DNA of 64,000 nucleotides from Fodinibius salipaludis (lineage in GTDB: Bacteria; Bacteroidota; Rhodothermia; Balneolales; Balneolaceae). The notes beneath the pieces are model-generated. The model saw only the letters and a program-made list of their open reading frames with translations, ran no database searches and was not told where the DNA came from. The position numbers were made by a program, and so were the translations under genes. The stretch lies in contig NZ_NSKE01000002.1 in the NCBI RefSeq assembly GCF_002287075.1, forward strand, positions 310,001 through 374,000, read 5' to 3'. Shown one piece after another: positions 30,106 to 60,370 of the stretch. Positions within the stretch are counted from its first letter, which is position 1. The number at the start of each line of letters is the position of its first letter.

Positions 30106-30116
30106 CAAATAACTAA

Positions 30117-35144: not shown

Positions 35145-35852
35145 TCAAAACACCAGCTCATTCAACTCCTCGCGCCGTTCCTTCCAGCTGGGCATATATT
35201 TCTCCAAGAGAGCTTTAAATCGCTCCGTATGAAGCCGTTCTTGCAGGTGGACCATCTCATGTACCACTACATACTCCAAGCATTCTGGAGCCTTTTTTGC
35301 CAGCTCCAGGTTAAGTATGATACGTCCCTCATCTGTATTGCATGATCCCCATTTCGTTTTCATTTGGCGAACAAGCCAATCGTTAACCTGAACGCCCATT
35401 TTTTCTTCCCATTTTTCGATAAGCGGAGGGATCTGCTTTTTTAATTCCGAACGGTAAAACTCTTTGACCACCTCTCTCTTCTTCTCTCTATCGCTTCCGG
35501 GCCGCACATACAGATCCATATACTTTTTGTTTCGGATCTCAACCTTGGGTGGGGCATCATGTTCTATAATATTTAACAAATACCGTTGACCCTGAAAGTA
35601 ATGACTTTCCCGCTGGATGTACTCTCGTTCCGGCTGACGATCTTGCTCCTGCATATTTCGGATATGCTTTTTGATCCAGCCGAGTTTCGAAACGGCAAAC
35701 AGACGAATCGACTTTGTTTCCATCTCCTTCGGACTGGAGATACGTACCCGTCCCGTTGGCGGATGGACCGACAAGTGCATATTCTTGATGTCTTTCTTTA
35801 TGACATCTATATCAATACCGGAAACAGTAATTTGTGTTTGCTCAGTATTCAT
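35145..35852 (-). CDS. YgjP-like (DUF45/M48-type) zinc metallopeptidase
   Basis: 235 residues. Zinc motif VVHEMVHLQERLH near residue 195 with the third ligand downstream, and WGSCNTDEGRI upstream, the marks of the YgjP family. It overlaps hsdR by 11 bases and is the last gene of the leftward restriction string. Such peptidases are often found at the end of type I restriction loci; a role in limiting HsdR activity by proteolysis is plausible but not shown. Confidence 0.85.
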   Translation of the reverse strand: MNTEQTQITVSGIDIDVIKKDIKNMHLSVHPPTGRVRISSPKEMETKSIRLFAVSKLGWIKKHIRNMQEQDRQPEREYIQRESHYFQGQRYLLNIIEHDAPPKVEIRNKKYMDLYVRPGSDREKKREVVKEFYRSELKKQIPPLIEKWEEKMGVQVNDWLVRQMKTKWGSCNTDEGRIILNLELAKKAPECLEYVVVHEMVHLQERLHTERFKALLEKYMPSWKERREELNELVF

Positions 35853-38800
35853 CCTGGTTCTTAATTACATCTAAGACTTCCTGTACGTTAAATTTCTCTG
35901 GCAGCTTTTGCTTAATCGCTCGTTTAACTTCCCGCTCCTTGATTTTATTGTCGCGCCATCCATCTTTGGCGGTATATTTAACGGTTTTATCAACTACTTT
36001 GGCAAGCTCATCATCGTTATTCAAGTTGTCATACAAGGCTTTCTGCCCAGATGTTTTAATCTGTTCTGGATAATCCTGCCCATTGAGCTGTTTGACCTTT
36101 TTGGTCAGTTCAACCAACTCCTGTAGATATTTCTTGTAATCCAACGCCTGCTGCTTGCGCTTTAAGATCAACTCTTCCAAAATATCCGACATCTTCTCAA
36201 AGTACTTCGGATTCGTTGGTCGCTCTTCGATAATGCGCTTACGGATGTTATTCTCAATCGTCTCGGCCACAGCTTCCGGATCGTTGCGTATTCCTTCGGG
36301 CAACTCGTTCACCGCATCTTCTCCTCGTTGTACTACAAGCTCGATAAGTGACAAATCATCCAGTGCTGAAATCTTCTCGCTCGGTTCAGCACTGATATAC
36401 ATATCGATCAGCTGACGCATCCCCGGCTCGTAGGTTTTCAAATCGATATAATCACCACTGGCATGTTTCACCTCATCACGAACATCGGAATAGAACTGGA
36501 CTTGCTGTTTGATCTCGATGGCTTCCTGCTTCGTATATCCGGCGCGCAGCATCTCATTGGCAATGTCAGTATAGGCTCGAATCAGGGAGGCGGTCAGCTT
36601 ATAAAGCGTAGTCCGCTGCTCTTCGGTTTCTTTGAGGTCATCCTCATTTTCAGGATCACCGCAAAAATATCGAATAAACTCCTTGGTGGTTTTCGGGTGG
36701 ATCGGTTCGCAGAGTGCTTCCACTGCATCTAATGCTTCATCCAGTTTATTACGGGCCTGCTCGTACCGATCTTTTAGCAGTCCTTCTACATCATCCTTGT
36801 CATATCCTTCAAAGGCTTCGGAGGTATAATCAGCAATGGACTGCTCCAGGCTTTTAAACAGGTCCTTATAGTCAACCACATAACCGTACTCCTTATCTTC
36901 GGTATGCAATCGGTTAACGCGGCAGATTGCCTGGAATAGCCCGTGATCCTGCATCGGCTTGTCGATATACAGGTAGGTGGCCGGTGGTGCGTCGAAGCCG
37001 GTAAGCAACTTATCGACTACAATGAGCAGCTTCATTTGAGCGGGCTCGTTCACAAATTTCTTTTTGACATCTTCCTCAAACTGCTCAGTACTCTTTCCGT
37101 CCAGCATATCCTGGTACACCTTATACTTATGCAGCTCTTCGGTATCACCCGCGCCGGTTGACTCTCCCTTTACTTTGTCAATACTTGGATTATAGGAGGT
37201 AACAATAGCACAGTATTTACCCAACTCGTGCTCCTGGAACAGTTCATAAAACTTACAGGCATCATAGATGCTATTGGCCACCAACAGGGCATTCCCTTGT
37301 CCGGTACAAAGCCGATCCTTAATCTTGAAATCCTTAACAATATCATAGACAATCTTTTGCAACCGGTCTTTGGAGCTGAGCAGCTTCTTCATGGTTCCCC
37401 AGCGTTTCATCAGTTCTTCCCTCGCCACATCGTTGAGGCCTTCGGTCTCTTTTTCAAACCACTCGTCGATGCTTTCCTGGTCGGTAATCTTCTGATCTAT
37501 GTCGCGAGCTTCATAGCGCAGGTCCAGTACAACGTTATCCTCGACCGCTTCATCAAACTTGTAGGTATGGATATAGGGCCCAAACACCTCCAAGCTGGTC
37601 TTCTTGTCGTTTTTGAGCAGAGGTGTACCCGTGAATCCGATAAACATGGCATCGGGCAGGATGGTTTTCATAGCCCGGTGTAGCTTGCCAGATTGCGTGC
37701 GGTGACATTCATCTACAAAAACATAAATGTCGCCTTTAGCCTTGAAATCCTTGGGCAGGTTTTGGCGGATCTCTTTAATGTAGCTTTCATACTCCCCTTC
37801 ATCTTTGGTGCCGAACTTGTGGACCAGTGAGGAAATCAGGGGATACTCATTTTTATTGAGCTTGTCGATTAGGTCAGAACCGCTCTCGGCGCGCTCCATT
37901 GATTCACCGGCATCATCAAAAACCCGTACAATTTGTTTGTCCAGTTCGATACGATCGGTAATGACCAACACGCGCGAATCATCCACATGCTCGCGGATCC
38001 ATTGGGCCAGCCAAACCATTGTTAGGCTCTTGCCGCTTCCTTGGGTATGCCAGATAATTCCATCTTCACGTTTTGTCACATTCTCCTGGGAGGCTTTAAC
38101 GCCAAAATACTGGTGCGGCCGACATATTTTCTTCGCTCCCGCATCAAAGAGCACAAAGTCATGGATGAGCTCGATTAACCTTTCTTTATTACATAGCTGG
38201 ACCAAGTGTTTGTCGAGTAGGTAATCAAACTCCTCATCGGTCTCTTCTTTCCATTTTTGATAATATTTCTCCGGGGTTTCGATGGTCCCGTACCGCAGGC
38301 CAGCGGTATCGTTACCGGCCATCACCAGCTGTATGGTATTAAAGAAGGATTTGATGAACTCCGGCTTCTGGTTGTCCAGGTTTTGCCGGATGCCTTTATT
38401 GACGGAAACTTTGGAACGTTTGAGCTCCAAAATACCCACAGCAATTCCGTTGACGTACAGCACTATATCAGGACGTTTATCAAACTCTCCAAGAACCGAT
38501 ACCTCCTCGGCAATTGCAAAATCATTATTCAGCGGATCCTGCCAATCGATAAAGTGAACCGTTTGTTTATTTTCTCCCTGGGAAGCCCGTACCTCGGTTC
38601 CATAGCGAAGCAACCTGTACACTTCCTTGTTGGTATTGTAGAGCGAATCGGCTTGGGACTGGGCTGCCCGTTCCAACTCAAATATGGCCTTATCAATAAG
38701 CGGTTTATCATAGCCCTGCCGGTTTAAAAAACGGCGGAGCAGCTCCTCCTCCACATTTCTATTGTTCTCCCGCTCTTCCCAGTTTCCCAAATAATCGTAG

Positions 38801-38871
38801 TCCAATCGCTCCTGAAATAGCTTGACTATCCGGTTTTGGGCATTGCGTTCTATTTGTCCAACGTCACTCAT
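35842..38871 (-). CDS. hsdR: HsdR, type I restriction endonuclease subunit
   Basis: 1009 residues, full length. N-terminal nuclease: RPDIVLYVNG and ILELKRS (Asp ... Glu-X-Lys). Translocase motor: Walker A HTQGSGKSLT, DECHRTQSG (motif II), IGFTGTPL (motif III), VDKLLTGFDAP and later CRVNRL (motifs V, VI). The C-terminal helical domain docks to the HsdM-HsdS core. It pulls in unmethylated DNA and cuts at collision sites. A gap of 105 bases separates it from the DUF262 pair. Confidence 0.97.
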   Translation of the reverse strand: MSDVGQIERNAQNRIVKLFQERLDYDYLGNWEERENNRNVEEELLRRFLNRQGYDKPLIDKAIFELERAAQSQADSLYNTNKEVYRLLRYGTEVRASQGENKQTVHFIDWQDPLNNDFAIAEEVSVLGEFDKRPDIVLYVNGIAVGILELKRSKVSVNKGIRQNLDNQKPEFIKSFFNTIQLVMAGNDTAGLRYGTIETPEKYYQKWKEETDEEFDYLLDKHLVQLCNKERLIELIHDFVLFDAGAKKICRPHQYFGVKASQENVTKREDGIIWHTQGSGKSLTMVWLAQWIREHVDDSRVLVITDRIELDKQIVRVFDDAGESMERAESGSDLIDKLNKNEYPLISSLVHKFGTKDEGEYESYIKEIRQNLPKDFKAKGDIYVFVDECHRTQSGKLHRAMKTILPDAMFIGFTGTPLLKNDKKTSLEVFGPYIHTYKFDEAVEDNVVLDLRYEARDIDQKITDQESIDEWFEKETEGLNDVAREELMKRWGTMKKLLSSKDRLQKIVYDIVKDFKIKDRLCTGQGNALLVANSIYDACKFYELFQEHELGKYCAIVTSYNPSIDKVKGESTGAGDTEELHKYKVYQDMLDGKSTEQFEEDVKKKFVNEPAQMKLLIVVDKLLTGFDAPPATYLYIDKPMQDHGLFQAICRVNRLHTEDKEYGYVVDYKDLFKSLEQSIADYTSEAFEGYDKDDVEGLLKDRYEQARNKLDEALDAVEALCEPIHPKTTKEFIRYFCGDPENEDDLKETEEQRTTLYKLTASLIRAYTDIANEMLRAGYTKQEAIEIKQQVQFYSDVRDEVKHASGDYIDLKTYEPGMRQLIDMYISAEPSEKISALDDLSLIELVVQRGEDAVNELPEGIRNDPEAVAETIENNIRKRIIEERPTNPKYFEKMSDILEELILKRKQQALDYKKYLQELVELTKKVKQLNGQDYPEQIKTSGQKALYDNLNNDDELAKVVDKTVKYTAKDGWRDNKIKEREVKRAIKQKLPEKFNVQEVLDVIKNQDEY

Positions 38872-38976: not shown

Positions 38977-41175
38977 TCATAAAGCTCTCAGCTTCTCATA
39001 TTCCCTTTTACACGTTTCCAAGTATTCATCATAATATTGGGTCATCTCATTTTTGTGCAGCTTAATTACTTCCTCCTGCCAATCATCTTTATCGCTTTCA
39101 TAAACCCGCAACAGTTTAAGAGATTCAATACGATTGCGAACCTCATTCGACTCATTGAACTTCTCTTTCTTTACCTTGTAAGTGGAATTACTAAGTGAAG
39201 AATTAAGGCTACGAGAAACCAAGGCTAAGTTGCCAAATGAATCCAATAACTCTTTTGGAAGTTCTTTTTTTGTCTTTCCTCCTCTCGGATTTTGTGGAGC
39301 TATGTGTTCAACCGAATTTTTTGCTGTTATCTTAAATGAAGTAATCTTTTCCTCGCTACGCTCCTTCTTCATCTTGCGCCATAACAGATATTCAAGTTTA
39401 TAGAACCAGTAATGTGGGAATTGTAGTCCCATTGGCTCTTCAAGCAAATAATTCGTGGGCTCATATTTCTGCTGGCCGCTAATATTTTGATTCTTTATCT
39501 CATCCATAAATACAGACGTTCTTTCAATCAGAGGATCATCCTCCATCTTGGTATCGATATTTAATAAATGATTATCCAGATATTGCAAATAAATACGATC
39601 CAAGCCAACCCGATCATCTTTTATAAGCTTCTTATAATTGGAATGAAGGAAGTATAAAAAAGGAGTAAGCCAGTAGAACGTACGCATCTCCTGTGAGTGA
39701 TAGAGCTGACGTTGGAGCTGGCTTAATTCCGGTTTGTATTCTTTGGTTTGTCGGTAGAGATATATTTTATCCTTGTCCGGTTTCTCATAAAGCTTGCAGA
39801 GTTTGAGAATATCTGTACTCTCATCCTTTATCCACTTCACTATGTATTCATCAAAGACAAAACGGACCTCCCATAACAACTGAATAAAAGCTGCTACTTC
39901 CCGGGCTCTTTCTTTTTCATTTTTTATCTCATCCAATCTTTCAAAGAAATATTCTTCAAAGGTATGCAGTAACTCTTTGTCAAGAATCCGTTCGATGTCC
40001 CCCCAGCCGCGCTCTTTCAAATATATCCGTAGGGTATGTTGTAAAAACATGGGGAAATTGATTATGCTCTTGATCTCCTGCGAACGCTCATCTAAAACAT
40101 CCTCGTCCGATTGATCGGACTGTTCTTCTTCTGATAACTCTTTGTTGAGCACCTCCTGGAGTCTTAATCCATCGCCATCAAACTCCTCACGCTGATTACT
40201 AACCCCACTGTTTCCTTCTTTGGAGTGATCTAATCTTTTTAAATCGCCCAGTACTGTATTAGCATCCTTATAAATTGTATAATTCTCGACCTTCGTATAC
40301 GACTCCAGCTCGGTAAGACGCTTGCCGGTGGCATCCTGGAATCCCTTTTCAATAAATTCGTTCATGCCGGAACAACTATCCCAAAGCGTGGCGTAGTGAT
40401 CCATACTATACTCCAGGATCTCTCTTCCTTTATGCATCGTTTCAAGTATCCGGGCTTTCAGGATTTGATGATGCTCAAGCTGGACACCCCGGTTGTTCAA
40501 GACCTCAAATAATTTATTCAGATCGGCATTGTCTGGGACGATCGTTTTTACCATCTGAACCTGATTCCGAATGTAGCTGCTTATCTCCTCTTTCTGCTCT
40601 TCATCCAGATAATTGGTGAAGAATGCATCGATTTCTTTAAAAGCGTTTGCCAGTGGATCCAACGCCCCGGTATCAAATCCCTTTTCTGGATTTTTTTGGA
40701 CCAGATATTCCAGATCAAGTTCAGGTGCTTCCTCGTAGTCGTCGTAGTGTTCGACGATCTCCCTCATGAACTCTGATACCTGATCTCGAATATCAAACTC
40801 AATCCGCAACGGGATCTGATCTTTCTTTCCCGGCGCGCCGTTCTCCGGAAAAGCATACTCCTTGAGATCATTTTGCAGGTAGATAGACAAAAGCCATAGC
40901 GTAGTGAATCTCTGCTGTCCATCAATAAGCTCGTAGAATGTCTTTCCATCTCTGACATCTTCCTTAACTATGACATTTCCCAGGTAAAAGATCGAATCTT
41001 CTCCTGGATTATTTTTTTGATAGCTCGAAACTATATCCGACAGCAAAGCATGGATCTGTTCTTTTTCCCACACATACAGGCGCTGATAGATCGGGATTTT
41101 AAAAAAGATCCCCTCTTTAATAATCTGATCTACCGTAATAGGCTGTGATCGATATGCAAGATCATTCATTTGCAT
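38977..41175 (-). CDS. DUF262-DUF1524 protein (GmrSD-like)
   Basis: 732 residues. N-terminal DUF262 (ParB-like nucleotide-binding) with IPIYQRLYVW and IDGQQRFTTLW; C-terminal DUF1524 HNH-like nuclease with VEHIAPQNPRGG, LGNLALVSRS-type and SSLSNSTYKVKK elements. GmrS and GmrD proteins form type IV enzymes that cut modified phage DNA using NTP. It overlaps the upstream DUF262 gene by up to 14 bases, so the two are a translationally coupled pair within the type I locus. Confidence 0.85.
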   Translation of the reverse strand: MQMNDLAYRSQPITVDQIIKEGIFFKIPIYQRLYVWEKEQIHALLSDIVSSYQKNNPGEDSIFYLGNVIVKEDVRDGKTFYELIDGQQRFTTLWLLSIYLQNDLKEYAFPENGAPGKKDQIPLRIEFDIRDQVSEFMREIVEHYDDYEEAPELDLEYLVQKNPEKGFDTGALDPLANAFKEIDAFFTNYLDEEQKEEISSYIRNQVQMVKTIVPDNADLNKLFEVLNNRGVQLEHHQILKARILETMHKGREILEYSMDHYATLWDSCSGMNEFIEKGFQDATGKRLTELESYTKVENYTIYKDANTVLGDLKRLDHSKEGNSGVSNQREEFDGDGLRLQEVLNKELSEEEQSDQSDEDVLDERSQEIKSIINFPMFLQHTLRIYLKERGWGDIERILDKELLHTFEEYFFERLDEIKNEKERAREVAAFIQLLWEVRFVFDEYIVKWIKDESTDILKLCKLYEKPDKDKIYLYRQTKEYKPELSQLQRQLYHSQEMRTFYWLTPFLYFLHSNYKKLIKDDRVGLDRIYLQYLDNHLLNIDTKMEDDPLIERTSVFMDEIKNQNISGQQKYEPTNYLLEEPMGLQFPHYWFYKLEYLLWRKMKKERSEEKITSFKITAKNSVEHIAPQNPRGGKTKKELPKELLDSFGNLALVSRSLNSSLSNSTYKVKKEKFNESNEVRNRIESLKLLRVYESDKDDWQEEVIKLHKNEMTQYYDEYLETCKREYEKLRAL

Positions 41176-42712
41176 TACCCTTACTCCGTTTGATTACTTT
41201 TTTAGCAAACTTGGTCAAATCAAGATCATCCCCGTCATCTCCAGTCATTTTATCCCACCAAATGTCATAATACCTGTGGAAACCATTAAAACACCGTTCA
41301 TTGACTCCACTTTTATCCAATACTCCATCATAATCTTCATCGGTAAGATCAACGTGGCGTGTTAACCGTTGCTCCCGGTCAGATAAAACATGCTGCTTTA
41401 ACGATTCTAACACTTCAACAGGACGAAAGGAATGTGTAATGACATCAACAAGGTTATACTCGCGAATATATTTCAGGGCCGACTGTCGAAATATGTAGTA
41501 CTGCTCCAGCCGTTTTATTCCGTGGGCCAAGCCCAGCAACTCAGCAAATTCAAACAACCGATCTGAGCCGTATTTATCGTAATACGTAACCGAACAGACC
41601 AGAAATAGTTCTTTCAAGTAGTAGGAGTTCTCTTCAACTATAGCATCGAAGTAATCCCGAAAATTCTTGATCTCTTGATCCTCGGTATCTTCACGAAATA
41701 GTTCATATAATAGCTCAGCATACTTCTCGGCAAATAAAAAGTAGTGAAGTCCACTGTGGATAGGTTGGCGTAATGTGAATGGGAGCAGCGAACTTTTTTC
41801 GGAGACTTTAATATTGCTGCCGGCTCGTTGCAATCCACCCTCTCTGGATTCCACCAGTTTTTCGCTCAGCATGTTCTGCCGATTGGGATACAATGGGATT
41901 TCCCGCCCCTGGGATCTGACCGCCCCATCTTGAAATTCTTCAATTACCAGATCCCGGTTTTCTTTTTCAACGTCTTCCCCCTTCCATCGTCGGGCACGCC
42001 AAAGGAGCTTATGGAAAAGCTCGAAAGCAAAATCATGCTCGGAACTCAAAATGCCTTTGAAGGTCTGTAAGTGCTCCCACCGTTTAGCACTGTTTTCTTC
42101 AAGATACCTTCTATCCTGATGATCCTCCGAGTCCAGTTGATTTATTTCCCGCAGGTGAAATGACTTTAACAGATCCGTGGATCTTAACCGGACGCCCCGG
42201 CTGTTCTGACTGTCAAAAAAGGTGAAAGCCAAGTCAATATCATCGGTTTCAATGATCGTAATCTCCAGTTCATTCAAAGAACTTCTAACTCCTTGTTTAC
42301 CATCTCGATTGGATATAAAATCTTGAATGTGTTCCTTGGCCGACTTAATATTTTTGTATGACTCTTGGTGGTAGTAGCTAAGCTGCATTCTCTCTGTATC
42401 GATCTGACTATCACAAAGGATTTGATAGAGTAATAATAATGTAGTAAGCCGCTGCTGGCCATCGATGATATAAAGTCCTTCTTTTTCATGGTGCTCATGC
42501 AGCAAAATGCTACCCAGGTAATAGGCTCCCTTCGTATGACTTTTCAAGTCCTGGAGTAATTGAACAATCTTTCTCTGATCCCAGACATAAGGACGTTGAT
42601 ACCGGTCGATTCTCAGTGGATAACCAAATTTCCCGCTCTCATGGATCTTACCTGTTAGCAGATTATGAGTCTTACAAGTAAAAGCCGAAACTTTTTTATT
42701 CGAAATACCCAT
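41162..42712 (-). CDS. DUF262 protein, partner of the GmrSD-like nuclease
   Basis: 516 residues. DUF262 motifs RIDRYQRPYVWDQ and IIDGQQRLTTLL; the FFDSQNSRGVRL stretch also belongs to the family. There is no convincing HNH motif at the C-terminus, which makes it a likely regulatory or NTP-binding partner of the following full-length protein. It lies 16 bases after hsdS and overlaps the next gene. Confidence 0.8.
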   Translation of the reverse strand: MGISNKKVSAFTCKTHNLLTGKIHESGKFGYPLRIDRYQRPYVWDQRKIVQLLQDLKSHTKGAYYLGSILLHEHHEKEGLYIIDGQQRLTTLLLLYQILCDSQIDTERMQLSYYHQESYKNIKSAKEHIQDFISNRDGKQGVRSSLNELEITIIETDDIDLAFTFFDSQNSRGVRLRSTDLLKSFHLREINQLDSEDHQDRRYLEENSAKRWEHLQTFKGILSSEHDFAFELFHKLLWRARRWKGEDVEKENRDLVIEEFQDGAVRSQGREIPLYPNRQNMLSEKLVESREGGLQRAGSNIKVSEKSSLLPFTLRQPIHSGLHYFLFAEKYAELLYELFREDTEDQEIKNFRDYFDAIVEENSYYLKELFLVCSVTYYDKYGSDRLFEFAELLGLAHGIKRLEQYYIFRQSALKYIREYNLVDVITHSFRPVEVLESLKQHVLSDREQRLTRHVDLTDEDYDGVLDKSGVNERCFNGFHRYYDIWWDKMTGDDGDDLDLTKFAKKVIKRSKGNANE

Positions 42713-42728: not shown

Positions 42729-44546
42729 TTACCCGAACAACTCATAAGATTCATTAATAGCTCTCTTTATATTCTCATCGGAAAATATATCTCGTTCAAG
42801 TTTAGACTCCCATTCCGGATGAGATGCTATTACTTCTTTAACAGTGGATAATGTTACTTCTTGACCTTCTTTCCCCAACTCTATCCTTGCTTTGTCAACA
42901 GTAGTTAAAAGTTCAAGGTCATCATTACTCTGATAACGGAAATTCTCATCAATCCAATTAATCGCTTCTTGTCCATACCAGTTATCAAAATATGATTGTG
43001 CTTCTTCTATATTTTCACCGGATACAAAGCCTTTATACTTACCTTTTTGAGCTTTTCCCATATACTCTTTCTCTAAGGCTATTCGTTCAGGTCCCCCATA
43101 TTTTGTTTTTGGATTGTATGGACCGGCAGCTTTCTTTCGGTATCCAGACACTTCATTATCAGTATATCGGTGTAAAAGATATGATAACTTTGTATACCGC
43201 TTACGGCCAAAAGCTATATCATCACCAAATTGATCAGCTAATGTTGCAATTATTACAGCCTCATTAAATGCCCAGCTATGAGTAGTAGAAATCTGTTTGG
43301 ATTCTTGAAGTTCTTTTCTTTCTTCTTTGGCTTTAACTAACCTCGTCTTCCCTGTCAGCAGCTCCTGCATCATGCCCTGCTTAATTTGCTTGTACTTGTC
43401 GCGCTTGGACTCCAACGCTTTGATCTCAGCATCCATGTCACTGAGGATCTGAGCAATGGCTTTTTGTTCTTCTTCATCTTTAGGAAAAACTATGGACACC
43501 TTTTCTAATTCCCCCATATTTATCTTTTGGGGAGATGCATTTGTTAGTGCCCTTTTTTTGACCTCCTCAACGAATTGCTCCGATTCGGTATAGCGATAAA
43601 AATATTGAGTGTTAATTTTATCACTCAATTTTAATAAAGCTAAACTAACATAGATACTGGCGTCAATGTCCCAGTCAATTAATTTAGTTTTTCCAAGAGT
43701 TCCAATTCTGGTTAAGAGAACATCCCCTCTTTCAGGTTTGCAGCGTTTAATTAACTTTTCATGCTCTGTTTTTGATATGTATTTTACATCGGAATAATTA
43801 TCAGCTGTAACATTTTCAACGCTATAGAATGGGATTCCATAATCAACATAACTGGGAGTATAATGAGTACCGTCACTTATTGAAATACACACTTCTCCCA
43901 ATGTTTTCTCCTCCCACTCACCATCAAACCCGGGCAACCGTTTCTTACCGGTAAGCAGCTGCTGCATAGTGCCTTTTTTGACCTGCTGCTTCTTTTCGAT
44001 GAGGGCATTAAGTTCGGCGATCAGGGCATCCACATCGCTAAGGGCCTCGGCGATGGCTTGTTGTTCTTCGAGGGTTGGGGGAAATGGCAACTTCATATCC
44101 GCAATCATCTCCATTCGAACAGAATCAACAGAAGACTTTGCAGTCATTCCCATCACTCGTTCATAAAAATATTGACTAAATGCTAAGTAGAAATAATATC
44201 CATCTATATCGTTATTGAAGTTACTGATCTTGTAAACACGCTGATGGTAATCGAACTTGCCATTGATATAATGAAATATCTTACCAGTGTTTACACCATC
44301 ACCTGCCGTTAAAACTGCCTCCCCATCAAATGAATATGAGTTTATTCTTTCAACTTTTGAGGAGCGTACAAAGAAAGGGTATCTACCGTCATCAATTTTA
44401 TCCTCTGTATTCTTAGCACCAGTCCCTATATGAGCTAAATCCTTTATAAGTCTCATTTCCCAATCATTTGGAATCACACCAACTTCGGTCCGCTTATATT
44501 CTTCGGGAACAGAATTTTTTGCTGGTTTATCAGTAACTACTTCCAT
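42729..44546 (-). CDS. hsdS: HsdS, type I specificity subunit with an extra C-terminal domain
   Basis: 605 residues, about 200 longer than usual. Two target-recognition domains (about 25-165 and 215-365), each followed by the helical spacer with a near-repeated phrase, KGTMQQLLTGKKRLPGF and QGMMQELLTGKTRL. After about 405 comes a further domain with KLSYLLHRY and AAGPYNPKTKYGG, reminiscent of the Panacea/SocA fold. The DNA of both recognition domains is more AT-rich than the spacers, as expected from domain swapping. It overlaps hsdM by 10 bases. Confidence 0.93.
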   Translation of the reverse strand: MEVVTDKPAKNSVPEEYKRTEVGVIPNDWEMRLIKDLAHIGTGAKNTEDKIDDGRYPFFVRSSKVERINSYSFDGEAVLTAGDGVNTGKIFHYINGKFDYHQRVYKISNFNNDIDGYYFYLAFSQYFYERVMGMTAKSSVDSVRMEMIADMKLPFPPTLEEQQAIAEALSDVDALIAELNALIEKKQQVKKGTMQQLLTGKKRLPGFDGEWEEKTLGEVCISISDGTHYTPSYVDYGIPFYSVENVTADNYSDVKYISKTEHEKLIKRCKPERGDVLLTRIGTLGKTKLIDWDIDASIYVSLALLKLSDKINTQYFYRYTESEQFVEEVKKRALTNASPQKINMGELEKVSIVFPKDEEEQKAIAQILSDMDAEIKALESKRDKYKQIKQGMMQELLTGKTRLVKAKEERKELQESKQISTTHSWAFNEAVIIATLADQFGDDIAFGRKRYTKLSYLLHRYTDNEVSGYRKKAAGPYNPKTKYGGPERIALEKEYMGKAQKGKYKGFVSGENIEEAQSYFDNWYGQEAINWIDENFRYQSNDDLELLTTVDKARIELGKEGQEVTLSTVKEVIASHPEWESKLERDIFSDENIKRAINESYELFG

Positions 44547-46954
44547 GCAACCCCCATCGTTTCCAGGTGACTATTTATTTTTTCTTCCAGCGTTTCCACT
44601 TCTGAATCAATCTCAGCAACGGCGCGATCGTAGCGTTTGGCCAGCTCCTTCAAACGTCGGGTGAGGCTGCGAGAAACCGCTTCCACTTCATCCTCGATCT
44701 TACCCTGTATATCAGGTAGCCACTTGTCATCCACAACCAGTGTTTTTACTTCATCGGGCGTTAGTTCCGGATACTTCTCATTTACTTTTTTGCGAAGAGC
44801 TTTTTCAGCTTTCTTCACTTTCTTTTTGGCCTTGGAAGCTGCATCATAGGCGTCTTTATACTCCCGGACAATTTCGTATTCCTCTGCATCATCGGGACTG
44901 TTTTTAATTTCCTTCAACCGACTCTTTAGGTTGGTTTTGGTCACATTGCCCGCATCACTGAGACAGTTATCCAGCAACCCATCCTCGTGGGCATGTTCCT
45001 GCTCCAGTTCGTCCATGGTCTGGTCAGCTGTTTCCTGCTTCTGTTTGAGCTCTTCAATTTCGGCCTGCTCCTCCGGGAAGTAGCGATCGATCACCAGCTG
45101 TTTAGGAATTAGCTCACACTCAAACTGTCCCTTCTTGATCTTGCCCGTGCTGGTCCGCACCGGCTCCAGCGTGGCCTTCCATTCGTCCTCAACAATCATA
45201 TAAAGGTCATCCTTCATAGTATCGGCCCAGTAGTCCATCAGGTGCTGGTAGATGTCGTACTTGTCAATGAGCGTGGTATCCGAGTAGGCCTTGAGCAGAT
45301 CCTCCGAAAGATCTTCGATAAATTCAGTAGGACTGGTGTCTTTGGTGATCCCTTTCAACTCCTCATAATGGTCTTTCTCCCAGGCTTCGAAAACCCGATC
45401 CAGTTTCCGTTGGTACTGCTGAAATTCCGGATGGGCAAAAATGGTATCGTTGATGGCGTCCTTATCCACCGTTAGCTCAACGTATCCCTCCCGCAGCGGT
45501 TCAAACAGATCCTTTTTCAGCGTGGGATACACCTGCCAGAAGCGGTCCAGCTCGTCAATATCCCGCTCAGGGATCCCGCCTTTCAGGTGGGCTTCCAGAT
45601 CCTGGTTGTCCTCCTCTTCGGTCGTATCAATATAGCGCGGAATGTTTAGGTTGTAATCGTTGTCGCGAATTTCTTCAAATGGAACCATCCGGGCATAACC
45701 ATCGGCCTCACTCTGACTTCGGAAATAATCTACGATCTTGTGGATGTCCCGCTCCCGCAGCCGGTTTTTGTTGCCATCCTTCTTATAGCCTTCGCTGGCA
45801 TCGATCATAAAGATACCATCCCGCGTTCCAGACTGTTTCTTATCCAGCACCAACACGCAAGCAGGGATACCGGTACCGTAAAACAGGTTGGAGGGTAAGC
45901 CAATCACACCTTTAATATATCCGCGTTCAATAAGATTACGACGAATCTCCTCCTCGGCATTGCCTCGGAACAGCACTCCGTGAGGCAAAATAACCGCTGC
46001 CTTTCCAGTATTCTTCATCGACTTGACGATATGCAGCAGAAAGGCGTAATCCCCATTACTCTTGGGCGGTACCCCAAAACCGTCAAAGCGATTGTAAAAA
46101 TCATTTTGCGGATCCAGCCCGTTGGTCCAGGCCTTGTAGGAGAAGGGAGGATTGGCAACCACATAATCAAAGCGTTTCAGGGAACCGTTGTCAGTCCATT
46201 TGGGATCGGCCAGTGTATTGCCCCGCTTGATACTGTGCACCGCCGTAGGCTGGTTGTGGAGCACCATATTCATCTTGGCCAGGGCCGAGGTCGCATTATC
46301 CATCTCCTGCCCGTATATCGTAATATCCACATCCGCTTCATCAGCCACTTTCAGCAGGAGCGATCCACTTCCGCATGTCGGATCATAAACGGTATCCGTC
46401 GGGCTGTCAGCCTTTTCTACTCCTACAACCTTGGCCAGGATTCGGGACACCTCCGCAGGGGTATAAAACTGTCCTTTGCTCTTGCCCGATTCGGTAGCAA
46501 AGTGCCTCATCAGGTATTCATAGGCATCACCCAATAAGTCATCCCCACCGGCGCGGTTATCGGCAAAATTCAACGCTTCATTCTGGAAGATTCCAACCAG
46601 GTTAGTGAGCCTTTCTACCTTTTCCTTTCCGCTACCCAGCTTTTCGTCATCATTGAAATCAGTCTGGTCGATAACGCCTTTCAGATCATTGGCTTCGGCA
46701 ATGGGAGCAATGATCTGCTTATTAATCTTGTCTCCAATATCCTTTTTGTTCTTGAGCTTGACCATATCCTCAAAGCTGGATCCTTCCGGAATCACAAGCA
46801 GGGCATCTTCCTGGCCTGCGTACTTATCAGATACGTATTTGATAAAGAGCATAGTCAGTACATAATCCTTGTACTGGGAGGCATCCATCCCACCGCGCAG
46901 CTCATCGCAGCTTTTCCAAATGGAACTGTATAGATCACTTTTCTTAATAGCCAT
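44537..46954 (-). CDS. hsdM: HsdM, type I DNA N6-adenine methyltransferase subunit
   Basis: About 805 residues from the ATG at 46954 (a TTG would add two). Motif I DPTCGSGSLLL and catalytic motif IV NPPFSYKAW, the N-terminal HsdM helical domain and GQFYTPAEVSRI. The C-terminal 200 residues form a long charged coiled-coil extension, explaining the length above the usual 500-550. It methylates adenine at the HsdS-defined site. It is 14 bases after the response regulator gene, suggesting one transcript. Confidence 0.97.
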   Translation of the reverse strand: MAIKKSDLYSSIWKSCDELRGGMDASQYKDYVLTMLFIKYVSDKYAGQEDALLVIPEGSSFEDMVKLKNKKDIGDKINKQIIAPIAEANDLKGVIDQTDFNDDEKLGSGKEKVERLTNLVGIFQNEALNFADNRAGGDDLLGDAYEYLMRHFATESGKSKGQFYTPAEVSRILAKVVGVEKADSPTDTVYDPTCGSGSLLLKVADEADVDITIYGQEMDNATSALAKMNMVLHNQPTAVHSIKRGNTLADPKWTDNGSLKRFDYVVANPPFSYKAWTNGLDPQNDFYNRFDGFGVPPKSNGDYAFLLHIVKSMKNTGKAAVILPHGVLFRGNAEEEIRRNLIERGYIKGVIGLPSNLFYGTGIPACVLVLDKKQSGTRDGIFMIDASEGYKKDGNKNRLRERDIHKIVDYFRSQSEADGYARMVPFEEIRDNDYNLNIPRYIDTTEEEDNQDLEAHLKGGIPERDIDELDRFWQVYPTLKKDLFEPLREGYVELTVDKDAINDTIFAHPEFQQYQRKLDRVFEAWEKDHYEELKGITKDTSPTEFIEDLSEDLLKAYSDTTLIDKYDIYQHLMDYWADTMKDDLYMIVEDEWKATLEPVRTSTGKIKKGQFECELIPKQLVIDRYFPEEQAEIEELKQKQETADQTMDELEQEHAHEDGLLDNCLSDAGNVTKTNLKSRLKEIKNSPDDAEEYEIVREYKDAYDAASKAKKKVKKAEKALRKKVNEKYPELTPDEVKTLVVDDKWLPDIQGKIEDEVEAVSRSLTRRLKELAKRYDRAVAEIDSEVETLEEKINSHLETMGVAWK

Positions 46955-46968
46955 TCGCAAACGTATTT

Positions 46969-47907
46969 CTATTTAAAATTTTCGATGCAAAAGTTTTTGT
47001 ACCACAATAACAATTCTAACAAAGTATTAACAGCTGAACGATATGCATACTTTGTAACTGGTTCAGGATAGTCATGAGATTCTGTTTGTACCAAATCTAC
47101 AAATCCACTTGTTAAATTTTTTATGTGTTCTGGGAAAACAGGTTCTGACCTTTGACTAACAATAGTTCTTCCATTCCGATCTCTGATTTCCATCCCTGAA
47201 AAATAGAACCAAGAACCTTTAATATTTACCCGTTCATCGTTATCACCATAGAAAAGATCCAAGGGAACCAGATCTTGGTCCTGATCATTAGCGTATGCTT
47301 CATCATAAAAGCTTTTAACAAAAGCCTCGTACATTTTTCTTAAAGGAGTGAACGCTCCATCCCTATTATACTTTGCATCACTTTCAAGCTGAGCCAATAT
47401 TTCTATTAAATCAGGCATCTTATCCATGGGCATAAAACTTCGATCAAATACTTCAAACACATCGTTATACTTATTTTTTATCGCATAATCATCGGATTTT
47501 GAAACCTCTTCTTTTAAATAATCAAACATCTTTTTCTGATCACGGCCCTTGACGAACACTTCTTTGTTTCGCGTAACTGTGTCTGAATTTACCTTATCAA
47601 AATGTCCAGTATAGATACAATGGGGGAGATACTTTTCTTCAACATGAACTAATCTACTAATTTCAGCAAGTGTATCAGCAAGAGCACCAGCATCTCGTAA
47701 TTTTGCTGAATCTGGTTTTTCAAAGAATAGTGCATCTAAAATTACAGCATCATATTTGTCATAATTATCTCGAATTTCTTGAATACCCTCCTGAGCATTT
47801 GTCAGCTTCTCTTTTATCAGCACCCGCTCACTTTTTGCTTCTTGAATAAAGTCAATCATTTTATCCGCTTCATCATCCAAGAGTAATACACTTATAGGTC
47901 TATCCAT
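46969..47907 (-). CDS. Response regulator with an unrecognised helical output domain
   Basis: 312 residues. All receiver catalytic residues are present: D11-D12, phospho-acceptor D58 in VILDALFF, T100 in IYTGHF and K120 in VFVKGR. The remaining 170 residues are mostly helical with a conserved-looking LFYGDND and KGSWFYFSG and no DNA-binding motif. It begins where the kinase gene ends (1-base overlap), so it is the partner of that kinase. The output may be protein-protein, possibly on the HsdMSR complex (inference). Confidence 0.8.
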   Translation of the reverse strand: MDRPISVLLLDDEADKMIDFIQEAKSERVLIKEKLTNAQEGIQEIRDNYDKYDAVILDALFFEKPDSAKLRDAGALADTLAEISRLVHVEEKYLPHCIYTGHFDKVNSDTVTRNKEVFVKGRDQKKMFDYLKEEVSKSDDYAIKNKYNDVFEVFDRSFMPMDKMPDLIEILAQLESDAKYNRDGAFTPLRKMYEAFVKSFYDEAYANDQDQDLVPLDLFYGDNDERVNIKGSWFYFSGMEIRDRNGRTIVSQRSEPVFPEHIKNLTSGFVDLVQTESHDYPEPVTKYAYRSAVNTLLELLLWYKNFCIENFK

Positions 47908-50651
47908 TATTCTTCTATCATTGGCATTAAAATTTCAAATTGTACTGGCCACATTTCTTCTGGCATAGGATTTTCAGGCTCTCGGAATATGCCATCAAGC
48001 TCTTCTACAATCCTTTTTATTTGAGCCCCTCCCAAACCGGTACCTCTATTTTTACCAGCGGATGTTCTTGCTGTAAGATAATCTTCAAAAGTATATCCAT
48101 CTGGAAACGGCTTTCCATTATTTGCTATTAAAAGTCTTGCAAAAAAACCCTCACTCTCTTCAATCAAACCAACAGTCAAAACAAACTCATAATCAGATTT
48201 GTCCTCCGTAAACCCATGCTTGATAGCATTGTCCAGAAGATTTCTAAGCACCGTTTTAAACAAGGCAGGAACAAGAGATACAGTAATTCCTTTGGATGGC
48301 CAATTTTCACTTTTCTCTATTCGAACTGAATAGGTATCATCAATATTTACTCCTTGTTTCCAATCTTTTAAAAATTGAAACAATTCGACTTCTTGAAACT
48401 TGCTCTTATCAACCCCACTTACAATTCTGTCCATTTCTACTTCCAAAAAGTCGATGGCCGACTGTACATTATATTGTACTCGATCTAACGTACCTTTAAT
48501 CGTTTCTTCTGGTTTTACTTCTTCACCCGGAAACTGTGGTGCAACGGGTTCCTCCAAAGAAATTACATCCTTTTCATTTAATGACTGTATATAGTTGGAA
48601 ATGTTATTAATACCGGAAGATACATTGCCAAGAATTTGCATGAAATCATGTTTAAAACCAGACAGAAAATCTTTTTCAACTAATTTTAAACGAGAACTTA
48701 TATTTTCAATTTCTGCAACTCTTGATTTTGCCACTTTTTTTATCCAGTCTCTAAAAAGAGATGCCTGCTTTCTTAGACTTGGCACCCTAACATATACATC
48801 CATCAAATCTCTTATTCGGATGTTAGGTATAGTTGATCCTTTTGGAAGTTTTGTAATTTGATTTCTAACAAACTCTGAATTGAGCTCACTTATCAAATAC
48901 TCCGGATCCACATCTTTATTTGGCTCCAATACAATAACATTTTTGCCTATGTAAATGGGATTCCCTTCATACTTAAATAAGCTTGGCTTTAGATTGTTAC
49001 CGACCTTACCTATCAACACTGCATCTTGATCCAAAACCATCAACTTAGAATTGTACTCTGATTTAGTTGATCGTTTAGATATATCCAACACAAAATCTGC
49101 GGGGTCATCAGTTAAATTAGACATGTTCATTAATGGATAACTGCCATCCACTTCTTTTCGAGGCAGTTTCAGTCTATTTGAAACCTCTGATAATTTTAAA
49201 ATTTCCTCATCCTGACTTCTTTGATAAGACTCTGAATATACTTTGGGATTAAAGAAGGTTTGGGGGCCGAACTTAAACTTATTTTGTTCAATTTCTTCCC
49301 ATGTAACATATCTCGATATACCGCGCTCTTCTTTCTTGCTCTTATACAACGATAGTATGTTATCTAAAGCATCTTGTAAAGACTTATTGGAAATATCCCG
49401 ACCATTAATAAATAGAGGGGGAGTTTTATCATCTGATTTTGACAACACCAGAATTGAAGTTTCAATACTGGCATAAGGGAGGAAAGCACTTTTAGGTAAG
49501 TAGATTATGCTTTTAATATTGTTTTTCTTCGCTAAATTTTTGAGCAGCCCACTTCCATTAAACAGGTGTTTATTGGGAATGATAATAAATGCCTCCCCAT
49601 CTTCTTTTAGCCCTCCCAACCCACTTAATAAAAATAGTTCTTCTAACGATTTAACGTTTTCAAGATATTTCCAATCTGGCTTATCTTTCCAAAAACTTTT
49701 ATTCAATTTTCCCCAAGGAGGGTTCATTAATAATAAATCATACTTATTATCTACAGTCTCAAATGCATGATCCAGCAATTTAATCTCATCAATACCAAGC
49801 AATATTAGTCTTAAAGCGGATAGAACAAGTATTCTTGGATTCGTTTGAGCAATAGAGATACTGGATTGACCAGAATTATTTTTGATAAACTGAGCTGGTA
49901 ATTCAGCATAGCTCGTATGTAAATCCGATACCCATTCATAATTGCCATTATCAATTAACTTTCCTACAAATCTTGATAGTTTATTTGGTGTATATCGCTC
50001 ATTATGACCAGGACGATGAACTAAATTTTCAAATATCCTACCCAGAAAGTTATCAAAAGTTTTTATATCAACAGCAGAAAGCGACCAATCGTAATTAGAT
50101 AAAAGGTTATAAAATTTAAAAGGAAGGTTATTATCTCCAACCACTTCAAACTTATGAATCTCAAATATTGGCTCAGTATCTGCAAAATCTTTGGGATACT
50201 TTCCAAAATAATCTCTAAAAATCATTTCAAAAGGTTCTAAGAGCTCATGAGCAGGCAAATCATTATTGGGTAGCTTTAATAGGTTCAACAATCTTTGCAG
50301 ATAATTAAAACTATCTCCCTTTAGCTCAAGAGCTTCCTTTGTTGCATTATACCTGAAATAAAAAAGCATTATGATGAATAAATCATAACCTTCACTACCA
50401 AACTCGCCTCTCAATCTCTCAATGATCTCCGATAAATCTTCCTCCGAGTACTTTTGGCCAACTATAGATACAAATCCATTTCGAATTTCAAACTGATCAT
50501 TATTTTCTTTCACACATTCTATGATGTCATTCTCAGTAACCTCATCCACCTCAAGCTGCTCAAAGTACATACCAATATCTACCAAATCTGATATAGACAT
50601 TGGGCGCTCATTTTTATCAAGTATCTTTCCAATTGCATCAGCTAAAGTCAT
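47907..50651 (-). CDS. N6-methylase-like / target-recognition / histidine-kinase fusion
   Basis: 914 residues. Order: winged-helix start (1-66); methyltransferase-like domain (about 190-430) with motif IV NPPW at 310-313, while the motif I region (241-249, VSDLHTSYA) lacks the glycines that bind SAM; an HsdS/type IIG-like target-recognition domain (about 485-635: LIGKVGNNLKP, GKNVIVLEP, GSTIPNIRIRDL); coiled coil; H-box FKHDF with H668; GHKL ATPase with N-box RNLLDNAIKH (804-810), NNGKPF and GTGLGG (870-875). I read it as a kinase whose sensor is a catalytically weakened DNA-recognition module. First gene of the leftward restriction string. Confidence 0.85.
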   Translation of the reverse strand: MTLADAIGKILDKNERPMSISDLVDIGMYFEQLEVDEVTENDIIECVKENNDQFEIRNGFVSIVGQKYSEEDLSEIIERLRGEFGSEGYDLFIIMLFYFRYNATKEALELKGDSFNYLQRLLNLLKLPNNDLPAHELLEPFEMIFRDYFGKYPKDFADTEPIFEIHKFEVVGDNNLPFKFYNLLSNYDWSLSAVDIKTFDNFLGRIFENLVHRPGHNERYTPNKLSRFVGKLIDNGNYEWVSDLHTSYAELPAQFIKNNSGQSSISIAQTNPRILVLSALRLILLGIDEIKLLDHAFETVDNKYDLLLMNPPWGKLNKSFWKDKPDWKYLENVKSLEELFLLSGLGGLKEDGEAFIIIPNKHLFNGSGLLKNLAKKNNIKSIIYLPKSAFLPYASIETSILVLSKSDDKTPPLFINGRDISNKSLQDALDNILSLYKSKKEERGISRYVTWEEIEQNKFKFGPQTFFNPKVYSESYQRSQDEEILKLSEVSNRLKLPRKEVDGSYPLMNMSNLTDDPADFVLDISKRSTKSEYNSKLMVLDQDAVLIGKVGNNLKPSLFKYEGNPIYIGKNVIVLEPNKDVDPEYLISELNSEFVRNQITKLPKGSTIPNIRIRDLMDVYVRVPSLRKQASLFRDWIKKVAKSRVAEIENISSRLKLVEKDFLSGFKHDFMQILGNVSSGINNISNYIQSLNEKDVISLEEPVAPQFPGEEVKPEETIKGTLDRVQYNVQSAIDFLEVEMDRIVSGVDKSKFQEVELFQFLKDWKQGVNIDDTYSVRIEKSENWPSKGITVSLVPALFKTVLRNLLDNAIKHGFTEDKSDYEFVLTVGLIEESEGFFARLLIANNGKPFPDGYTFEDYLTARTSAGKNRGTGLGGAQIKRIVEELDGIFREPENPMPEEMWPVQFEILMPMIEE

Positions 50652-50787: not shown

Positions 50788-52239
50788 ATGAAAATACTCG
50801 TCTCTTGGCTTGCTTACAATAATGATTTCGATAACGGCCAAGTAAATACAGCTGGCCCGACATATAATTACCATCAATACTTCTTTGAGCAGGAAGGCTA
50901 TGATCAACACCTCCTATTAGCAACTGAATCAAAGGAAGACCTCCCCATAACAAGACTTAAAAATAAACTTGATGCCGACTTCCCCAAACATAATATCCAG
51001 CCAAAGATCATTAGTATAAATGATCCGATTGATCTCAAAGAGATCAAAACAAAAGTCGAGCAGATTCTTTTAGAGTATTCAGATGATGAAATCGATATTT
51101 TCTTTTCTCCCGGTACCTCCGCGATGCAACTCGCATGGTATATCTGTCATACGACCCTTGGATTACAAACCCGCTTAATCCAACTCAGATCTTCCCGCTT
51201 TACCGATGACGATAAACCTGAACGTCTCTTCATAGATGTTGAGTCTACAGAAATACCCAAAGGAGTTATTCTAAAACAGAAGCAAACCTCATCAGATACC
51301 TTTGAGTATACCGAAGATTATTTGATAACAGACTCAATAAAACCGGTCTATGAGAATGCCTATAAAGTTGCCCAAACTGATAACGTAACCACCTTAATAC
51401 AAGGAGAAACCGGCACTGGTAAAGAGCATCTTGCAAGATTTATCCATGAAAACTCCATCAGAAATAACAGTACATATATCCCTATTAACTGTTCAGCCTT
51501 TAATGATGATCTTTTAGAATCCAGACTTTTCGGTCATAAAAAAGGTGCTTTTACAGGTGCTAATGAGGATAAAGAGGGGATCTTCAAAAAAGCAGATGGA
51601 GGAACAGTTTTTTTAGATGAGATCGGAGATATATCGTCTTATATGCAACAAGTTTTACTTAGAGTTCTGGAAGAAAAAGAGATTACGCCGATTGGCGGGA
51701 CCCCTGAAAAAGTTGATGTAAGAATAATAACAGCCAGCAATAAAGACTTAGTAGAACTCTGTAAGGAAGATCTGTTTCGGTGGGATCTTTTTTATCGACT
51801 AAATGTAGCACCATTAGAATTACCGAGCTTACAAGAGAGAGGTCGAGACGAAATAGAAAAACTTATCAGCTTCTTCGTAAAACAAAAAAAGAAGACACTT
51901 AAAAAGGACTCTCAGCTTGAGCTCACAAAAGAAGCTCGAAACCTACTTCTGAATTATGGATGGGCGGGCAATATCCGTGAGCTTGAAAATCTCATTGAGC
52001 GACTCTATGTATTCTCCGATAAGGAAGTAACCGTTGAGGACATACCCAGTTTTGTTAAAGAAAATAATAGTGAAAAATCTCTTCTACTGGATGATATTGA
52101 GAAAAGACATATTGATTATGTAATGACCCTGTACGATGGAAATCAAACGCGCTCAGCAGAAGCTATGGGAATTGCTTTGAACACTCTCAAAAATAAGATG
52201 GATAAGTATGGGTTAGATAGACAGAATTACTTGAATTAG
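50788..52239 (+). CDS. Sigma-54 activator with CARF-like sensor domain
   Basis: 483 residues. Residues 1-165 form a Rossmann-like CARF-type domain with the ligand loop FSPGTSAM (106-113); 180-410 are the sigma-54 AAA+ domain (Walker A GETGTGKE 206-213, GAFTGA 253-258, Walker B TVFLDE, arginine fingers near 331/337); 430-480 a Fis-type helix-turn-helix. The layout is that of RtcR. The ligand is probably a cyclic oligonucleotide or an RNA end. It is divergent from the restriction string, whose promoter region carries a -24/-12 match. Confidence 0.88.
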   Translation: MKILVSWLAYNNDFDNGQVNTAGPTYNYHQYFFEQEGYDQHLLLATESKEDLPITRLKNKLDADFPKHNIQPKIISINDPIDLKEIKTKVEQILLEYSDDEIDIFFSPGTSAMQLAWYICHTTLGLQTRLIQLRSSRFTDDDKPERLFIDVESTEIPKGVILKQKQTSSDTFEYTEDYLITDSIKPVYENAYKVAQTDNVTTLIQGETGTGKEHLARFIHENSIRNNSTYIPINCSAFNDDLLESRLFGHKKGAFTGANEDKEGIFKKADGGTVFLDEIGDISSYMQQVLLRVLEEKEITPIGGTPEKVDVRIITASNKDLVELCKEDLFRWDLFYRLNVAPLELPSLQERGRDEIEKLISFFVKQKKKTLKKDSQLELTKEARNLLLNYGWAGNIRELENLIERLYVFSDKEVTVEDIPSFVKENNSEKSLLLDDIEKRHIDYVMTLYDGNQTRSAEAMGIALNTLKNKMDKYGLDRQNYLN

Positions 52240-60096: not shown

Positions 60097-60370
60097 CTCC
60101 AACTAATTCAAGCTCATCTCCCTCTCTGACTCCTTCGGATACCAAATTTTTGGTGTTATCCAATATATCTTCACCCTTTTGGAATCGAGGTGGCTTTTCT
60201 GGTTCATAGCCGAAAGCATCCGCTGCTTCTTTTGCAGCTTCACCTACGTTTTTGTTCTTCTTCCAGGTAAACTCCTTGGAATCAAGGTTACGGGGAGCAA
60301 ATACCTGTACTGTAATTTTATCTTTAGATTCGTTCTTCTTTTTCTTGGGATTCTTTTCCTTTGTTTTCAT
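60071..60370 (-). CDS. Ubiquitin-like protein precursor (BilA-type)
   Basis: 99 residues: a Lys-rich N-terminal tail (1-17), one beta-grasp domain (about 18-88: ITVQVFAPRN, VGEAAKEAADAFG, REGDELELV), and a C-terminal GGGGG-VSSN. The tail after the glycines must be cut to expose Gly-Gly, probably by the JAMM protease. Described BilA proteins often have two beta-grasp domains; this one has one. First gene of the operon, overlapping the E2 gene by 17-32 bases. Confidence 0.82.
   Translation of the reverse strand: MKTKEKNPKKKKNESKDKITVQVFAPRNLDSKEFTWKKNKNVGEAAKEAADAFGYEPEKPPRFQKGEDILDNTKNLVSEGVREGDELELVGGGGGVSSN

Follow-up and report, generated by a model that had tools for sequence, protein, structure and literature searches.

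Why should a type I restriction operon begin with a histidine kinase, and what could that kinase be sensing? The question is raised by a locus of Fodinibius salipaludis (Balneolaceae), which lies in a stretch of 64,000 nucleotides (NCBI RefSeq assembly GCF_002287075.1, contig NZ_NSKE01000002.1, positions 310,001 to 374,000), termed the window below and used for all coordinates except where another locus is named. Restriction enzymes are usually regarded as self-contained. Here, on the minus strand, the gene of a 914-residue sensor kinase (47907..50651, with an ATG start) stands first in an operon, where it is followed by the genes of a 312-residue response regulator (46969..47907), HsdM, HsdS, two GmrSD_N proteins, HsdR and a YgjP peptidase. 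The kinase appears to be soluble and to have a broken DNA-methylating restriction enzyme as its sensor, and the arrangement points to a relay that would tell immune genes when to act. The reading preferred here, to which we give a probability of about 50%, is that of a soluble two-component relay in defence operons, the input of which is a dead type I methyltransferase together with half an HsdS. It is based on 21 kinase–receiver pairs, each of which is an individual locus with its own label (the window, L023, L029 and so on); two couples of these loci, window/L029 and L026/L027, are near copies.

A preliminary description of this DNA held that one protein joins methylase-like, HsdS-like and kinase parts, and this is borne out by a real open reading frame (ORF) of 914 residues and by the occurrence of the same domain order in 20 loci, a recurrence that makes the order more than chance. 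Residues 195 to 470 (49242..50069, minus strand, as for all parts of the kinase) are an N6-methyltransferase-like domain, matched by Pfam N6_Mtase at residues 205-470 with 74.2 bits (cut-off 20.4). It is followed at residues 485-645 (48717..49199) by a single HsdS-like target-recognition domain (TRD), found both by Pfam (Methylase_S at residues 498-629, 25.9 bits, cut-off 22) and by profile comparison. In such comparisons, the methylase part matched the neighbouring HsdMs with a probability of 100% (E 2e-42), and the TRD matched HsdS with 97.9% (E 3e-13), which confirms the domain proposed earlier. Chain 7eew_A (PDB 7eew, 638 residues) matches both parts, the second weakly. The exit region of the TRD runs into the dimerisation and phosphoacceptor (DHp) region (residues 629-746, 48414..48767, delimited by alignment and inference), which contains the H668 codon (48648-48650), and the protein ends in an ATPase domain (residues 775-914, 47910..48329; Pfam HATPase_c at 797-887, 28.3 bits, cut-off 26.4) with the N-box residue N808, an N-x-G-x-P motif and GTGLGG. 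At the N-terminus, residues 1-75 (50427..50651) would form a HARE-HTH-like winged helix. The earlier claim of a winged helix is upheld as likely: in the family this domain is optional, with more than 55 residues aligned in 6 of the 21 kinases, and the N-terminus of L118 matches Pfam HARE-HTH; the window protein itself, however, has no Pfam match in this region. A Pfam scan of 16 kinases gave N6_Mtase in 15, HATPase_c in 15 and Methylase_S in 9; L118, scanned separately, matches all three; the domains of L114 to L117 were assigned through BLAST and alignment only, and the kinase of L056 starts at a contig edge.

The methylase-like sensor is present in 20 of the 21 pairs; the exception, L055, was left out of the methylase and TRD counts and of the trees. 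The genome of F. salipaludis has a single such kinase (the second match there is HsdM), and, among relatives whose records carry a name, the closest is the metagenome-assembled genome of an uncultured Aliifodinibius. Within the order, 43 of 128 genomes matched the kinase, for the most part through partial similarity to methylases or other kinases, and reading the matches left the architecture at eight places; a receiver profile, with matches in 46 of the 128, was full length at those same eight. This profile also matched 18 of 394 in a sample of the phylum (11 of these were read) and 52 of 299 in the family of genome G300, where seven matches were strong and five of those new; weak partial matches were excluded, apart from the one in G376, which was read. 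A like operon is present on a Myroides plasmid (3 of 72,556 plasmid records match; the three are equally long and come from Myroides, and one was read). The window receiver had no match among 50,697 phage records, and no viral or phage copies of it were found. All 12 loci found via the receiver alone carry the kinase half, so that homologues devoid of it, which would have spoken against a kinase, did not appear, although no search was dedicated to them.

The methylase part, to judge from its motifs, looks dead. Motif I of the window kinase is VSDLHTSYAEL where HsdM has VYDPTCGSGSL, and the strict form of this motif (DPxxGx[GA]) together with NPP[FYW] occurs in 0 of the 20 kinases, whereas all 16 neighbouring HsdMs in the table have both. 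In the clade of the window (the window, L029, L023, L024 and L025), motif I is lost in all five members. The preliminary description was right about the loss of the S-adenosylmethionine (SAM) motif and about NPPW in the window kinase, but NPPW is not conserved in the family: it is VPPW in L029, the nearest relative (77% identical), and VPLT in L023. A single origin of the methylase parts of the kinases was not rejected (p-AU, from the approximately unbiased test, 0.227), with L054 and L056 grouping with HsdMs.

The other half of the protein is a complete kinase core, as had been proposed on the basis of H668, the N-box and GTGLGG. Compared with HisKA kinases of the same genome, the full core gave a probability of 99.6% (E 5e-25); the DHp part alone (residues 625-760 of the window kinase, in an alignment of the 21 kinases) gave 88% (E 3e-6) against 24 such kinases, with H668 aligned on their phosphoacceptor histidine, while the Pfam DHp models had no match in the window kinase. 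H668, N808, A809, N844, G846, G872 and G874 are identical in all 21 kinases, and H812 in 20. The G1 box is N-x-G-x-P and not D-x-G-x-G; the N form is also known in heavy-metal sensor kinases. The ATPase part matched HisKA-type kinases at 99.3%, versus 13.8% for the 7 top-scoring HATPase_c_3 proteins of the order and 63.4% for the 23 others, and the DHp part had no match in either of these HATPase_c_3 sets, which are labelled here, in our own terms, MORC/Hsp90-like and MutL-like. This comparison favours a histidine kinase over a MORC/MutL-type ATPase, and a HisKA-type DHp was found by profile around H668, the place where a MORC/Hsp90-type protein would lack one.

What could receive a phosphoryl group from H668? 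The adjoining gene overlaps the kinase stop by 1 nt and encodes a receiver domain (about residues 1-130, with D58) and an output domain (131-312). The window receiver has the acidic pair at 11-12, D58, T100 and K120, which agrees with the overlapping and catalytically complete response regulator of the preliminary description. D58, S/T100 and K120 are present in 21 of 21 receivers, and the acidic pair in 20 (it is E-N in L028); in a profile comparison with 30 receivers of F. salipaludis itself, the N-termini of the family gave 96% (E 2e-9). In every one of the 21 loci, kinase and receiver are on the same strand and between -35 and +5 nt apart. As to the output domain, no significant DNA-binding domain was found in 15 of 16 receivers scanned, the best match being WH_CYT4 (E 0.044) in one member. 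The C-terminal part of the L056 receiver is a Schlafen AlbA_2 domain, the annotation of which is mixed; AlbA_2 is assigned to L056 because only its C-terminus fails to align, and L056 was excluded from the receiver C-terminal profile. An extra C-terminal tail, OB/cold-shock-like by eye, was noticed in the receivers of L026, L027, L030, L050, L052 and L053.

The two proteins of a pair have changed together. Covariation was calculated as the correlation of pairwise identities over 14 loci, from which the near copies L029 and L027 were removed, as were L023, L055, L056, L116 and L117, which have no intact HsdM and HsdS pair in the table. Kinase and receiver identities are correlated (r 0.71, or 0.75 with the receiver domain, p 0.0005), as are those of HsdM and HsdS (r 0.83). 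By contrast, there is no correlation between kinase and HsdM (r 0.03, p 0.37) or between receiver and HsdM (r 0.01, p 0.42). Individual loci show the same: L114 and L118 have HsdMs that are 90% identical, yet their kinases and their receivers are each 25% identical, and L024 and L025, with kinases 50% and receivers 63% identical, have HsdMs that are only 31% identical. Since kinase and receiver go together without tracking HsdM or HsdS, they would therefore be a portable His-Asp cassette that moves between restriction operons.

The contexts of the pair vary in kind. Type I genes adjoin 17 of the 21 pairs (16 with HsdM and HsdS, and L117 with an HsdM over two ORFs), which makes them frequent partners but not obligatory ones. 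In L029, McrB and McrC occupy the place that the two GmrSD genes have in the window and are followed by an HsdR that is 94% identical. The L056 locus (G376:C5, 1-12424) has in a row the kinase, the AlbA_2 receiver, McrB, McrC, a PADLOC RT_XIII reverse transcriptase and a WGR protein. In L023, an OLD-like ATPase, a PLD-like protein, a radical SAM protein and a UvrD helicase are near the pair, and no HsdM match was found within the approximately 30 kb read. In L054, a NACHT protein precedes the kinase and the type I genes are on the opposite strand. The pair of L055 (G185:C124, 605-16345) belongs to a type III-A operon, between RAMP genes (Csm4-like) and a Csx1 (CARF-HEPN) gene, with Cas10, Cas6 and a 30-repeat array; its kinase has a different sensor of about 600 residues, without a Pfam match there. 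A search for this type of kinase in its family gave matches in 7 of 79 genomes, six of them in the ATPase region only, the full-length match being that of its own genome. Three side observations concern these contexts. The type IV modules between HsdS and HsdR are swapped between the window (38977-42712, two GmrSD genes) and its nearest relative (L022, 18024-21173, McrBC). In L117 (G636:C5, 10574-12175), kinase and receiver are whole, but HsdM is broken up into two ORFs. In L115, HsdS and HsdR of a type I operon are separated by a gene (13926-15572) with Schlafen AlbA_2 and HATPase_c_4.

How might such a relay work? A ligand, most likely DNA or something DNA-like, would bind to a clamp formed by the methylase and TRD parts; in the kinase dimer, two TRDs and two methylase folds would be held around it. 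This dimer view is suggested by the helices that, in type I enzymes, follow the TRDs and keep them at a fixed distance (PMC3874165, in the part of that paper available), and by half-HsdS subunits that pair on a symmetrical site (PMC2877798, likewise). As the exit region of the TRD runs into the dimerisation helix, ligand binding could reset the kinase dimer, H668 would be phosphorylated and the phosphoryl group would pass to D58 of the receiver. The receiver would probably act on a protein or as an effector, because no DNA-binding domain is recognised in the window protein; it might license or restrain the restriction machinery or add a fall-back response, while control of transcription would fall to the WYL or CARF-sigma54 regulator nearby. 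A nucleic acid is the ligand that we infer, and a phage mimic of DNA would fit the same clamp. A more ambitious version, which we hold only tentatively, is that of a portable His-Asp relay in which the dead methylase is a nucleic-acid sensor and the phosphorylated receiver a switchable effector (HEPN-like, or AlbA_2 in L056), giving a second stage gated by phosphorelay that could plug into type I and McrBC loci and, where the sensor is a different one, into type III CRISPR loci.

Several observations weigh against this reading. L115, L116 and L117 retain NPPF with a near-canonical motif I (NPFAG), while in L054 and L056 motif I is canonical but DLP stands for NPP, so that these kinases may still bind SAM. 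If the near copies are kept, the correlations of kinase with HsdM (r 0.37), of receiver with HsdM (0.34) and of TRD with HsdS (0.40) become significant (p 0.0005-0.005), and all cross terms then lie at r 0.21-0.40 (p 0.0005-0.04). The spacing of TRD and histidine speaks both ways: from Q629, a conserved residue near the end of the TRD, to H668 there are 39 residues in 8 of the 15 methylase-type kinases measured (Myroides included, and with two near-copy pairs among the eight), which is in favour of the preferred reading, but 34, 41, 41, 41, 42, 45 and 45 in the others, which is not one heptad phase, so that heptad phasing of this region is suggestive only. The C-terminus of the receivers matches DUF4145 at just 6% (E 0.006); R-x-x-x-E and H, from which a DUF4145 (HEPN-like) output had been predicted, are in register, and this identity is retained as a lead. 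The L116 pair has a WYL regulator and, in 20 kb of mostly unannotated ORFs, none that matches the restriction set. Finally, the predicted models, made from two-row alignments with L022 relatives, have a mean pLDDT (predicted local distance difference test) of 32.8 for the kinase and 36.6 for the receiver, and carry no weight for that reason.

The main rival explanation, though an unlikely one, is that the dead methylase and half HsdS are a decoy or guard, bound by anti-restriction proteins (Ocr, ArdA, SAM-destroying enzymes), which would trigger a second line of defence. Ocr is stated to be sensed by the PARIS, Gabija and Zorya systems (PMC12255303, in the part of it available). The sensor is not tuned to the local HsdS; other defence-type partners stand beside some pairs (the NACHT protein of L054, the OLD-like and UvrD proteins of L023, the reverse transcriptase and McrBC of L056); and the methylase part is the most diverged one in the near copies, with 54% identity versus 95% for the kinase part in window/L029 and 67% versus 88% in L026/L027. 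However, this fast change is confined to the two near pairs: over the 20 kinases, mean identity is 24% in the methylase part and 18% in the DHp (27% in both TRD and ATPase), and in those pairs the identity of the TRD, part of the surface that a DNA mimic would occupy, is 82 and 87%. In window/L029, synonymous divergence (dS) is 0.09-0.26 at kinase residues 1-60 and 663-902 and rises from 0.45 to saturation at residues 61-662, compared with 0.39 to saturation in HsdM and 0.15-0.59 in the receiver; the cause would be either an exchange of the sensor block or a recent homogenisation of the two ends (and, with them, of the receiver). The ratio of nonsynonymous to synonymous divergence (dN/dS) at residues 61-662 is 0.07-0.36 where computable, one block being saturated, so that the change in the sensor is a constrained one. 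Arms-race selection on the sensor was considered and set aside, as the same ratio gives no sign of it.

In the preliminary description, the module was thought to read the sequence or methylation state of the adjoining type I locus and to report to that locus. The folds of the methylase and TRD, the type I genes beside 17 of the 21 pairs and the weak correlation with HsdM and HsdS seen with the near copies would be in keeping with this, and yet the idea is now improbable. The 20 kinase TRDs form one alignable family, and their identities are not correlated with those of HsdS over the 14 loci (r 0.15, p 0.11); likewise, the correlation with HsdM vanishes without the near copies. In none of 17 loci was the locus's own HsdS the best HsdS match of the kinase TRD, all scores being weak. 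In window/L029, the TRD blocks of HsdS are 10-33% identical, as against 76-86% for the TRD of the kinase, and in L023, L056 and L116, HsdM and HsdS were not found beside the pair at all. The cassette, then, probably does not read the local restriction site, although it may read methylation state.

A third explanation, which we consider about equally improbable, is that the kinase governs the transcription of the operon via its receiver. This would be classical two-component logic, and in most loci a WYL or CARF regulator immediately precedes the pair, whose position is close to the probable promoter. But the scarcity of DNA-binding domains among the receivers argues against it, as does the separate WYL or CARF-sigma54 regulator in 17 of the 21 loci (WYL-type in 14 and CARF-sigma54 in 3, by BLAST). 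A Pfam match in L023 and the annotation of L030 confirmed the WYL assignment there; the regulator of L053 is four ORFs off, and L056 is without upstream DNA. In the window, the regulator is a CARF-AAA-HTH protein of the RtcR/PspF2 type, divergent and upstream of the kinase (50788..52239, plus strand, PADLOC 446 bits). Sigma54 activators of this kind were also noticed in L028 (14047-15498) and L029 (7501-8952), beside kinases as little as 22% identical. A sigma-54 promoter ahead of the kinase was looked for and rejected: by score there was no site in the window or L029 and a single 9-of-12 match in L028, and the same score yields nine such matches within the 64 kb window.

Least probable is a GHKL part that is a MORC/Hsp90-like or CapK-like ATPase or serine kinase, since the presence of such proteins in loci of restriction and immunity (PMC2292703 and PMC13373217, as far as the available parts of these papers go) and the divergent G1 box are outweighed by the DHp with its invariant histidine, by the ATPase comparison (in sets without CapK) and by the D58 receiver next to all 21 kinases.

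Is a relay of the preferred kind already in the literature? Soluble two-component-like pairs in restriction loci were described in 2021 by Bellieny-Rabelo (PMC8011034), whose HEF_HK and Response_reg_2 proteins, like the present ones, are a soluble histidine-kinase-like protein and a receiver enriched near restriction–modification genes. The HEF_HK kinases differ in being mostly HATPase_c_3+HEF_HK+HATPase_c, in being found mostly near C5 methylases and Vsr and, in the part of that paper available, in having no methylase or TRD described. PF19191 had no match in 16 kinases at E 0.05 (its presence in the library being unchecked) and PF19192 none in 16 receivers at E 0.5; with E values of up to 10 allowed, the latter matches the genome at two other sites, but not at the kinase locus.

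Other systems share one element or another. Type I HsdM with HsdS, and 7eew, likewise have a methylase followed by a TRD, whereas the kinase has lost the catalytic motifs and has a single TRD joined to a kinase and untuned to the neighbouring HsdS. The half-HsdS methyltransferase EcoR124INT has one TRD per chain, two copies of which recognise a symmetrical split site, but it is engineered, active and without a kinase (PMC2877798, in its available part). CapK/CapS and VapKSC are also pairs of a GHKL kinase and its substrate in diverse immune operons, activated by single-stranded DNA, and CapK/CapS shows that such operons can be regulated by GHKL kinases that respond to nucleic acid; CapK differs as an HTH-STAS-GHKL serine kinase with a DNA-binding substrate, no receiver being described in the part of the source available (PMC13373217). 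Receiver domains likewise occur near type III CRISPR, in Cam2 (PMC11229360), and near McrBC, in CnuA of CoCoNuT (PMC11090510); Cam2 is without a kinase partner according to its authors, in the available part of their paper, whereas L055 and L056 carry both kinase and receiver. In BREX loci, Schlafen RNases with a minimal histidine kinase and a winged helix-turn-helix put a histidine-kinase-type ATPase on a defence protein too, but there the effector carries the kinase, in place of a methylase sensor with a dedicated receiver (PMC12839542, as far as its available part goes). In a literature search limited to open PMC papers, no description of a methylase–TRD sensor on a histidine kinase was found. 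The earlier assertion that no system with this layout had been described must thus be narrowed, in view of the soluble pairs already in print, to this type of sensor, which we believe to be undescribed.

If the relay is real, a kinase with a borrowed methylase clamp would turn the recognition of foreign or altered DNA into a transmissible signal, which would give a testable account of how restriction is tied to later-acting defences. It would offer a modular soluble kinase whose ligand domain has the well-studied fold of type I M and S subunits, and a receiver family with an output domain common to restriction and CRISPR loci.

The type I locus downstream is complete, with HsdM, HsdS and HsdR all present as originally described, and its genes are on the minus strand. 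HsdM (44537..46960, 807 residues, PADLOC MTase_I 1239 bits) has its catalytic motifs. HsdS (42729..44546, 605 residues) has two TRDs and a C-terminal extension of about 190 residues without a Pfam match; this extension (43304-42729) has a weak match to NCBIfam DarG, at 19 bits far below the cut-off. Then come a GmrSD_N (DUF262) protein with DUF7834 (41162..42712), a type IV restriction-like protein with GmrSD_N and GmrSD_C (38977..41175), HsdR (35842..38871, 1009 residues, PADLOC REase_I 1415 bits) and the YgjP-like metallopeptidase gene (35145..35852), which also follows HsdR in L025/L063 (60%) and L119 (95%).

Just past the end of the operon, on the plus strand, are two genes, at 31976-32914 and 34323-35039, for a RAMA-domain protein and for one that matches Swt1-like HEPN below threshold. 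On the other side, a row of genes on the minus strand (57682-60370) encodes a ThiF-type protein with small neighbours and is possibly an E1-like conjugation operon. Two genes of the phage integrase family (53884-54498 and 54888-55547, plus strand) are close to the defence operon and, together with a tRNA-Asp at 30032-30106, may be the borders of an island.

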